From Halosimplex litoreum (GTDB lineage Archaea > Halobacteriota > Halobacteria > Halobacteriales > Haloarculaceae), in the NCBI RefSeq assembly GCF_016065055.1, contig NZ_CP065856.1, forward strand, positions 248,001 to 312,000: a stretch of 64,000 nucleotides of DNA, written 5' to 3'. The notes under the pieces are model-generated. The model ran no database searches. It had not been told where the DNA came from and was given only the letters and a program-made list of their open reading frames with translations. Of this stretch, positions 56,211 through 58,859 are shown piece by piece (the stretch's first letter is position 1; each line of letters begins with the position of its first letter). A program made the position numbers and the translations under genes.

Positions 56211-56521
56211 GGGCGCTATCCTTCGCTCCCGAATTTTCTCGGTCGCGTCGATTTTTCGCGTCTCGTGGATCACCCCGAACCCCGAGCGCCGACGGCGTTC
56301 CTTTAAGTCATTCTCGTCACAACGGATAGTAGTAAGAGGAGTTCTGCCGAGTCTCAGGCGTCTAGCAGTTGCTTCGTCCCCGCTAACCCGCGAAGGTGTC
56401 ACGGACCATCTCGCACGGCTACGCGCAGCCTGGCGGACGGGACGAGCGACGGACAAGCAGGTCGTGCCACAGAAAGTGACGACTCCCCAACACTGAATAT
56501 CGAGCCGGCGAGACAGCGTGT
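56211..56521. other. Gap between cdc48 and the membrane-protein gene, with promoter repeat R1
   Basis: The first 90 bp hold T-runs (ATTTTCTC, GATTTTTCGCG) suited to termination of cdc48. Repeat R1 (56301-56346) follows. The rest, about 175 bp, is GC-rich leader sequence with no recognisable gene. Confidence 0.5.
56301..56346 (+). promoter_or_regulatory. 46-bp promoter-like repeat R1
   Basis: CTTTAAGTCATTCTCGTCAC, then AACGG, six AT-rich bases (ATAGTA), then GTAAGAGGAGTTCTG. The TTTAA at 56302-56306 has the place of a TATA box, with a start expected at GTAAGAGG. It would give the membrane-protein gene at 56522 a leader of about 190 nt. Confidence 0.65.
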
Positions 56522-57121
56522 ATGCAGCGAGTCGTGGGGCGATACGTCGACGACCTGACGAGCGAGACGGAGGTGCGCTGGGTGTTCTACCGGGTCGCGG
56601 CCGTCTTTACCGCGCTGTGGGTCGCGGTCGTGCTCCTCGCGCAAATCGTCCTGTTTCTGTGGACAGGAGAAAGCGGGGCCGTGGAGGCGGGGCTTCCTGG
56701 CCCCATCGAGGTGCCCCTCGGGGCGGCTATCGTGAGCGCCGTCTGTATTCCGAACGCCGGGCTCGTCGGCGGGTGGGTCTGGAGCCGGCTGACCCGACGG
56801 TGGCCACCGGTGACGGCGAGGCGCGGGACGGTTCTGGGCGCGGTCATCGGACTCTCGACCTACGTCACTGCGACGGTTCCGTTCGCCGCCGCGTTCGCCC
56901 TGTGGGACCACGGATGGCGGGGATTCGGACTTCGAGCGTTCCTGTGGGGCGACTTCACGACCGCCCCGTCGGTCTTCCTCGACGACGTGACCGAAGCGCT
57001 GATGCGATTCCCCGGCTTCCTGCTCGTCGGCTCGGTCGTCACCCTCGGGATACCGCTCCTCCTCAGTACCGCCGTCGGACGCGCGCTCGGAACGGCCGCC
57101 GAACGCGAGCGAGCGACGTGA
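56522..57121 (+). CDS. Four-helix membrane protein, hypothetical
   Basis: A 199-residue protein from ATG 56522. Hydrophobic segments lie at about residues 25-47 (FTALWVAVVLLAQIVLFLW), 68-88, 105-127 (GAVIGLSTYVTATVPFAAAF) and 163-185 (PGFLLVGSVVTLGIPLLLST). A short cytoplasmic N-terminus (QRVVGRYVDDLTSETEVRW) and an Arg-rich loop give the topology. No known domain was found. It is preceded by promoter-like repeat R1 and followed at once by the array R2-R5; whether it is co-regulated with the downstream RNA polymerase-associated gene is open. Confidence 0.7.
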   Translation: MQRVVGRYVDDLTSETEVRWVFYRVAAVFTALWVAVVLLAQIVLFLWTGESGAVEAGLPGPIEVPLGAAIVSAVCIPNAGLVGGWVWSRLTRRWPPVTARRGTVLGAVIGLSTYVTATVPFAAAFALWDHGWRGFGLRAFLWGDFTTAPSVFLDDVTEALMRFPGFLLVGSVVTLGIPLLLSTAVGRALGTAAERERAT

Positions 57122-57181
57122 GCTTCGGGACCCCTCCCGACTGCTCGGTCACGTCACGAACTTCGACCGCTGACGGTGTTG

Positions 57182-57227
57182 GTTTAAGTCACTCTCGTCA
57201 CAACGGGTTAAAGTAAGAGGAGTTCTG
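57182..57227 (+). promoter_or_regulatory. 46-bp promoter-like repeat R2
   Basis: GTTTAAGTCACTCTCGTCAC, AACGG, variable GTTAAA, GTAAGAGGAGTTCTG. Same plan as R1 with three differences outside the variable six. Confidence 0.65.
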
Positions 57228-57309
57228 TGGGAATCGGAAAGCGATCAGCGGACGATCTCCCCCGATTGGCCGACCGGAAGACGACGCTCCGAGCCCCCAC
57301 CGAGAGCTG

Positions 57310-57355
57310 CTTTAAATCATTCTCGTCACAACGGTATTTAATAAGAGGATTTTTG
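57310..57355 (+). promoter_or_regulatory. 46-bp promoter-like repeat R3
   Basis: CTTTAAATCATTCTCGTCAC, AACGG, variable TATTTA, ATAAGAGGATTTTTG. Confidence 0.65.
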
Positions 57356-57441
57356 CGGAACCCACGACCGGCCAGCGACCGCGCCGTGTCGGGCCGCTCG
57401 GTCCACGCCGTCTCCTGATCCCGTTCCGCTCGCCGCCGATT

Positions 57442-57487
57442 CTTCAAATCATTCTCGTCACAACGGGATACAATAAGAGGAGTTCAG
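57442..57487 (+). promoter_or_regulatory. 46-bp promoter-like repeat R4
   Basis: CTTCAAATCATTCTCGTCAC, AACGG, variable GATACA, ATAAGAGGAGTTCAG. Confidence 0.65.
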
Positions 57488-57601
57488 TGGGACCTGCGAC
57501 CGGCCAGCGGTCGCACAGTCACTGTTCGTCCGACGCCGACCGCGCGACCCGGGTCCGTCGGTCCGGCCCACGAATCAACGTTCGGGTCGTGCAGTTCTAT
57601 T

Positions 57602-57647
57602 CTTTAAGTCGTTCTCGCGACAACGGTCTACAGTAAGAGGAAGTCGT
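57602..57647 (+). promoter_or_regulatory. 46-bp promoter-like repeat R5, nearest the rpo-epsilon gene
   Basis: CTTTAAGTCGTTCTCGCGAC, AACGG, variable TCTACA, GTAAGAGGAAGTCGT. A start at about 57633 would give the next gene (ATG 57717) a leader of about 85 nt. Confidence 0.65.
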
Positions 57648-57716
57648 CGATTCTCACTGCGCCATCTCACTGCCTAGCCGGAGGTTTCTATAGTCGCGAG
57701 GGAGAAGGCGGACGAA

Positions 57717-58481
57717 ATGAACGGGGGACGCGACAGGGCCGACCACGGACTGCGGACCAGCAGCGAGCCGGTCGACCCGCGCGCGGAACGGGACGTGAGC
57801 ACGCGGCCGGGCGACGGGTCGCTCGGGCGAGTCGAGGCGGTCAAAGACGAGGCGTTCCGGCGCTGGGACGTGACGACGCCGAGCGCGACGCTCATCGGTC
57901 GGGCCGAGAACCCCGACGAGGACGTGAGCGAGAACCTCCGGCGGCTGCACGACGAGCAACACCCGGCGATGGCGGGCCACGCCGAGCGGATGCACCGCCT
58001 GGAGAAGGCGCGGATCACCCACGCGTTCTGTAATCGGCTGGCGCTGACGCCGTGGGAGCGCGACCGAGCGCTGGGCATCATGACCGATCTGGACCTCACC
58101 GTCTTCGGCAGCCAGCGCGCCATCCAGAAGGTCGCGCTGGTCGTGATCCAGCACGTCGTCGACGACGAGCGCCAGCGTATCCTGGGGCTGCAGGACCAGG
58201 AGTGGATCGCCGAGCAGCCGCCCGAGTCGCTGGCCGACCTCCACGAGCGCTTCGACTCGATCAAGGAGGACCCCCGGTATCGGACGCTGATGGACCTGGT
58301 CGGCCTGGACGTGACGAGCGTCAACCGGTTGGCGCGGACGCTCCGGGAGCAACTGGACGAGCAGGACCTGCGCGGGGCGGTCTTCGGTCGGAACCCGCAC
58401 CGCGACCCGAGCCTGCCGCAGATCCGCGACCGTGACCCGACCGAGGTTCCGAAGTCCGACGGCGATCCGACCGCCGAGTGA
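57717..58481 (+). CDS. RNA polymerase-associated epsilon-type protein with TFB-like helical core
   Basis: A 254-residue protein very like the haloarchaeal protein annotated as DNA-directed RNA polymerase subunit epsilon: DRADHGLRTSSEPVDPRAER at the N-terminus and RRWDVTTPSATLIGRAENPD. Residues about 98-160 (ITHAFCNRLALTPWERDRAL, then GIMTDLDLTVFGSQRAIQKV) resemble a cyclin fold of the TFB type, so it may act in transcription initiation. Its role in RNA polymerase is not firmly established; the name rests on recall of the family. Five promoter-like repeats precede it. Confidence 0.75.
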   Translation: MNGGRDRADHGLRTSSEPVDPRAERDVSTRPGDGSLGRVEAVKDEAFRRWDVTTPSATLIGRAENPDEDVSENLRRLHDEQHPAMAGHAERMHRLEKARITHAFCNRLALTPWERDRALGIMTDLDLTVFGSQRAIQKVALVVIQHVVDDERQRILGLQDQEWIAEQPPESLADLHERFDSIKEDPRYRTLMDLVGLDVTSVNRLARTLREQLDEQDLRGAVFGRNPHRDPSLPQIRDRDPTEVPKSDGDPTAE

Positions 58482-58606: not shown

Positions 58607-58756
58607 ATGACAACCACAATCGAGATCGACGACGACCTCGCCGAGCGCATGGAGGCCCACCTCGAAGCGGACGAATCGCTCGCCGAACTGGTCGAAGAGC
58701 TCGTCAACGTGTACGAGGCGGAAGGCGCCTTCCTCCAGGAAGGCTACTCGGAGTAA
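58607..58756 (+). CDS. 49-residue antitoxin-like or DUF7557-like protein
   Basis: A short gene starting at ATG 58607: TTTIEIDDDLAERMEAHLEA, then a helical segment SLAELVEELVNVYEAEGAF and the end LQEGYSE. The beta strand followed by two helices is the shape of a ribbon-helix-helix antitoxin, and haloarchaea have a small family of such proteins with this ending (DUF7557-like). No toxin gene (PIN, RelE, HEPN) is next to it. The ATG has a CGGTAGCTACGG sequence upstream and no strong TATA. A regulatory role is plausible but unproven. Confidence 0.7.
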   Translation: MTTTIEIDDDLAERMEAHLEADESLAELVEELVNVYEAEGAFLQEGYSE

Positions 58757-58859
58757 CGTCGTCGGTCGACCGAGAAGCGGGGACGGGGCGTTCACAGCGA
58801 GCCGCCGCGGCGTCGGTCGGTTCGTCGAGTCGGTCGACGACCTGGTGTCGTGGACGGGA

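Follow-up and report, generated by a model that had tools for sequence, protein, structure and literature searches.

A rigidly spaced candidate promoter element accompanying the RNA polymerase epsilon gene of haloarchaea

Introduction

Haloarchaeal rRNA genes carry tandem promoters, TFB paralogues are general in haloarchaea, and many archaeal regulators act near the TATA box. The closest described repeats are the class I intergenic repeats of halovirus HF2, which are repeated promoters with a CTTTAAGTC TATA box and a TAGAG-type start, dispersed between viral genes, and whose promoter activity and start site were shown by reporter and primer extension (PMC8707807). The mapped start of one of them, IR4, lies 26 nt from the TATA box, and the repeats are active in Haloferax volcanii without viral factors (PMC8707807).

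Epsilon is an extra RNA polymerase subunit of Hbt. salinarum (rpoeps, OE_1279R) and a subset of haloarchaea, and its role has been called enigmatic (PMC8305020). That paper relates that it was described in 1983 as the component enabling Halobacterium RNA polymerase to work on native DNA, that it co-purifies with RNA polymerase in Halobacterium (from literature cited there), and that polymerase with epsilon transcribes native templates efficiently in vitro (citing Madon and Zillig 1983). The searchable literature, which returned only PMC8305020, contained no target sequence or promoter class tied to rpoeps. Here we describe a repeated element upstream of an epsilon gene in a 64-kb stretch of Halosimplex litoreum DNA (hereafter the window), and follow it through the order.

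Results

Five promoter-like repeats upstream of epsilon

A repeat search recovered five repeats at the same start coordinates as those of the preliminary description, all on the + strand and downstream of a CDC48-family AAA ATPase gene: copy 1 at 56301..56340, copy 2 at 57182..57221, copy 3 at 57310..57349, copy 4 at 57442..57481 and copy 5 at 57602..57641, with spacings of 881, 128, 132 and 160 nt. The repeat unit is 40 nt long, with the Halosimplex consensus CTTTAARTCRYTCTCGTCACAACGG-N6-RTAAGAGGA, and identity to copy 1 is 80–85%. The 46 bp originally given as the repeat length hold for copies 1–4, though copies 3 and 4 differ within the last six bases, and fail for copy 5, where the likeness ends after ...AAGAGGA and TCTCGCG stands instead of TCTCGTC. 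Copy 1 consists of the TATA box TTTAAG, the block TTCTCGTCACAACGG, N6 and GTAAGAGGA; copy 5, the closest to epsilon, has a divergent block, TTCTCGCGACAACGG, and its downstream sequence differs from that of copies 1–4. Copies 3 and 4 have ~78 bp in common at 81% identity. A relaxed scan of both strands of the window (up to 8 mismatches) found no further copies, and the full pattern occurred nowhere else in the whole 4.16-Mb genome in scans for exact or near-exact patterns, which divergent copies may escape; the reversed-pattern control gave 0 matches. The element was present at the same locus in all eight Halosimplex genomes searched, in one to five copies each, the species among the locus matches including H. 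carlsbadense, H. pelagicum, H. aquaticum and H. salinum.

The proposed archaeal-promoter layout was borne out, in that TTTAAG is followed by an N6 with four to six A/T bases in every copy and by RTAAGAGG at the expected distance, the TATA-like box lying ~26–30 nt before the predicted start in an AT-rich start-proximal region. An ordinary archaeal core promoter (BRE, TATA, proximal promoter element, initiator) has the AT-rich TATA-like box and the AT-rich pre-start stretch in common with the element, which however adds a 14-nt block at a fixed distance and forms a sub-class found only with epsilon. No purine-rich BRE was seen, the weight matrix described below having C/T-rich bases directly upstream of TTTAAG, but this is not decisive because BRE mutations in HF2 IR4 left activity unchanged (PMC8707807).

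A hydrophobic ORF of 199 aa (56522..57121, + strand), probably cargo, separates copies 1 and 2; no convincing family match was found for it, and H. pelagicum has a different gene there. Elsewhere, the genes between copies include a nucleotidyltransferase-like gene in Natrialbaceae and a DsbA-like gene in Halobacterium; since different groups have different genes between copies, the arrays seem to collect cargo genes.

The element is order-wide and rigidly spaced

A sister genus carries a single, divergent copy, and in two more genera of the family a related sequence occupies the same place. Exact matches to the general search pattern derived from these relatives, TTTAAGTNNYTCTNGNNAYAANG, occurred in 41 of the 99 order genomes and 18 of the 77 family genomes, against 0 for the reversed pattern. 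This haloarchaeal motif search, suggested in the preliminary description, was strongly positive: the motif, TTTAAGT-NN-YTCTSGYNAYAASG-N6-TA-rich start region, is rigidly spaced, order-wide and exclusive to epsilon-positive genomes, and the Halosimplex unit is one dialect of it. A weight matrix built from 183 distinct instances distinguished true copies from background across the fetched loci, with a bimodal score distribution (160 hits >12, vs 0 in reversed sequence).

To avoid circularity in measuring the spacing, the block was searched without its TATA box in loci retrieved through similarity to epsilon protein rather than by the motif. TTYAAR stood exactly 9 nt upstream in 159 of the 169 blocks so found and at no other distance within 40 nt, and the reversed versions of these loci contained 0 blocks. 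With motif-fetched loci included, the box stood at 9 nt for 295 of 306 blocks; of the remaining eleven, ten had a TATA with one or two changes at the same spacing. The 14-nt block between TATA and expected start, previously singled out as unusual, is thus confirmed as a rigid order-wide element. The further suggestion that it could be an operator is conceivable, but a block that shows no clear dyad symmetry and keeps a fixed distance from TATA looks more like a core-promoter element. As far as could be found in the literature searched, the element is a previously undescribed promoter-like one of salt-loving archaea, and in our judgement it is very probably a functional promoter class.

The element occurs only with the epsilon gene

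Of 78 named epsilon loci, 70 had one to six copies within 3 kb upstream of the gene and on its strand. Epsilon adjoins the element at nearly all loci, and the relation to rpo-epsilon is supported. Epsilon was called with a profile of 27 epsilon proteins, genomes being positive at E below 1e-60 and distant paralogues being scored negative. Of the 44 epsilon-positive genomes in the order set, 41 had the exact pattern, and of the 55 epsilon-negative ones none did; the overlapping family set gave 18 of 26 epsilon-positive genomes against 0 of 51 epsilon-negative ones (Fisher 1e-24 and 1e-11, respectively, with phylogeny ignored). In several families, and also inside one genus (g34), the presence of epsilon and that of the motif change together: two g34 genomes have both (G116 and G138) and three neither (G047, G105 and G125). 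With up to 2 mismatches allowed, the motif was still missing from some epsilon-positive genomes (two Halorussus, the Halapricum-like g4 and G158), among them the three motif-negative ones in the order set and the tested g4 genomes, and the best matrix scores in motif-negative epsilon-positive genomes were background-like, except for a weak one in L268. Epsilon therefore does not need the element, and the implication is one-way: in two genome samples, the motif implies epsilon.

At variable positions, the dialect of distant copies matched that of epsilon-adjacent copies at 78% within the same genome, 75% within the same family and 51% in other families (label permutation p < 0.0005), and the flanks of distant and epsilon-adjacent copies were 29% identical vs a background of 27%. 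Dialects common to distant copies without common flanks would be the trace expected of a co-evolving DNA-binding factor. Its restriction to genomes with epsilon and its mostly tandem position upstream of that gene make the element the strongest candidate so far for the DNA on which epsilon would act.

Epsilon genes are themselves multiplied in Halococcus-type genomes, with up to four genes or fragments each (L179, L180, L182 and L188). A plasmid of Halobacterium hubeiense (L172) encodes a divergent epsilon paralogue (~35% identity) with one element ~270 nt upstream of the matched part; a DNA similarity search of plasmids with one unit gave no useful match.

Copies stand apart from epsilon's own start

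The repeats were initially read as leading into epsilon, in effect as five promoters of the gene, a reading that is not supported: epsilon probably has a leaderless promoter of its own, with the TATA-like box TTTCTATAG at 57685..57693 (+ strand), a position conserved across 48 epsilon starts as an AT-rich peak at −32 to −25 from the ATG, and copies also occur elsewhere. The copy closest to epsilon is usually 112–279 nt upstream of the ATG; others are downstream of epsilon, convergent in Halorussus and Haladaptatus or co-directional in Halococcus, or near unrelated genes, which from their sequence we take to resemble menA, serS, prs, a GNAT acetyltransferase and DsbA. The next gene usually begins about 95 nt or more from the element, whatever its orientation. 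Because copies lie after, convergent to or far from epsilon, each looks like a self-contained promoter followed by ~70–100 nt of gene-free DNA, and we regard the repeats as candidate stand-alone upstream promoters. They resemble the tandem haloarchaeal rRNA promoters in forming a series of similar promoters, but differ in preceding a gene that keeps a separate leaderless promoter. After copy 3, a short transcribed region is predicted at 57340..57415 (+ strand; approximate extent) with weak GTTCT-like and CCAGCGR blocks, and analogous stretches follow copies 1, 2 and 4. The alternative offered at the outset, several short transcripts, fits this arrangement well, with the RNAs as predicted products.

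In Halorussus, Haladaptatus and Halorientalis (L154, L155, L157, L159 and L160; L244, L246, L248, L249 and L258) a copy sits just downstream of epsilon and points back; the transcript of a copy pointing into epsilon would be antisense to its 3' end. Small genes convergent to a copy, mostly stopping ~100–200 nt away, occur in one genus and, in Halococcus, adjoining epsilon (L168, L169, L170 and L186); on their sequence they are presumably TRAM-domain proteins. In the window, epsilon is followed at 58608-58757 by the gene of a small DUF7557 protein (Pfam PF24434).

The epsilon protein

The product of the gene at 57717..58481 (+ strand; 254 aa, helical core at residues ~85–215) shares 59–61% identity, at 83–90% coverage, with records named epsilon from Halorussus, Halococcus and Halocatena, and identity across 27 members of the family is 47–88%. 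VNG0315 was considered as the NRC-1 epsilon locus and rejected, as it is tfbF. No Pfam family fits epsilon, and there is no Pfam TFIIB match. AlphaFold models are essentially all-helical (pLDDT 70 at full length, 85 in the core), and their top Foldseek matches in the PDB are yeast TFIIB and cyclins (probability 0.91–0.98), which are individually non-significant (E 0.17–0.7, TM below 0.5). When compared by profile with four TFB proteins encoded in its own genome, epsilon showed no relationship to them (hhalign prob 0.1–0.2), and neither the two repeats nor the zinc ribbon of TFB-type proteins were found, epsilon having one helical core only. In a column-shuffle test, Z reached 4 against TFB repeat 1, with no signal against repeat 2, a value to which we give little weight because column shuffling also destroys helical periodicity. 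Epsilon may weakly resemble TFIIB/cyclin, which we take as a lead from the models.

Discussion

We propose that the repeats belong to a haloarchaeal core-promoter class, in which YTCTSGYNAYAASG is placed rigidly, beginning exactly 9 nt downstream of the TATA box's first T, and that each copy would launch a short RNA of roughly 70–100 nt. RNA polymerase carrying epsilon would be the factor that reads the element, akin to an extra initiation factor, with recognition probably through the TFIIB/cyclin-like helical core. At the epsilon locus, where the tandem copies stand upstream of a separate, probably leaderless promoter, firing of the copies triggered by epsilon would tune its own expression; negative feedback seems most likely, by reading into or occupying the epsilon promoter, although the sign is a guess. 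Taken together, a core-promoter class read with help of epsilon, launching short RNAs and providing feedback at epsilon's own gene has, in our judgement, an even chance of being right. The stricter version, in which epsilon is a dedicated TFIIB/cyclin-like promoter-recognition subunit and the tandem copies, through short upstream transcripts, make up an autogenous circuit, we put forward tentatively, as it is somewhat more apt to fail than to hold. Such an arrangement would resemble those of bacterial alternative sigma factors and TFB-specific promoters, in which a factor has its promoter class at its own gene and at scattered further sites; the likeness to TFB factors does not extend to sequence, where epsilon has no detectable relationship to them, and recognition of the element by epsilon would be its functional counterpart.

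The repeats might instead be an array of small-RNA genes, whose function lies in the ~70–100-nt RNAs and whose block is merely a common promoter. Units recur with a period of ~111–191 nt (median 132), carry two loose blocks in the transcribed part (GTTCT at +40–50 and AGCGR at +62–74 from the TATA start) and usually leave the gap to the next gene noted above, all of which such genes would be expected to do, yet sequence divergence is much faster in the transcribed parts than in the promoter, even inside one array. Folding was no more stable than that of shuffled sequence (mean z 0.06, n=160 units) and no Rfam family passed its cut-off. A structured RNA was rejected on these grounds, and we think small-RNA genes in general a rather unlikely answer.

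Unlikely, too, is that some other regulator or one particular TFB/TBP pair binds the block, with epsilon merely in the same regulon. Halosimplex has at least eight TFB-type proteins, and archaeal regulators acting near TATA are plentiful, but TFB paralogues are general among haloarchaea whereas the element is confined to epsilon-positive genomes, and the block seems asymmetric with invariant spacing, unlike most dimeric operators.

Promoter repeats derived from a virus or mobile element, like those of HF2, and captured beside epsilon would account for one specific likeness, as HF2 IR4 contains CTTTAAGTCATT, the first 12 bases of copy 1, and later TTAGAGTGAGGAG (PMC8707807). IR4 has no TTCTSGYNAYAASG block, however, and of the class I motifs, beta (TCTTTAAGTC) and gamma (CGTCTNNTAGAG), the element has a beta-like box and no gamma, which places the element outside that class. 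The 42 exact motif matches on viral contigs, nearly all low-GC, had matrix scores of at most 18 vs about 25–70 for nearly all haloarchaeal copies, no epsilon homologue was found in viral contigs or phages, and order-wide conservation with dialects also speaks against capture; we rejected a viral origin, which appears very improbable. The 12 bases including the TATA box that IR4 (L365:580-636) has in common with copy 1 may reflect mimicry of a host promoter class. The HF2 repeats bear on the epsilon reading as well: Haloferax volcanii, to judge from the wording 'a subset of haloarchaea', would lack epsilon, and the activity there of repeats with the same TATA box and without the block counts against it.

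Ordinary duplicated promoters of no special role can hardly be the explanation, although tandem duplication is common and copies 3 and 4 are alike over a long stretch: the block is conserved order-wide while its flanks are randomised and the element occurs only with epsilon, a pattern that already disfavours plain duplication.

What gives the reading of the element by epsilon-bearing polymerase its significance is that this subunit now has a concrete candidate target, the first that could be found: a precisely defined DNA sequence that occurs only alongside epsilon and has further copies elsewhere in many genomes. The region between TATA and the start is usually thought to be poor in sequence information. 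Should the proposal hold, archaea would possess a functional counterpart of the alternative sigma factor: a specificity subunit, linked to the polymerase, that acts on the DNA of just this region.
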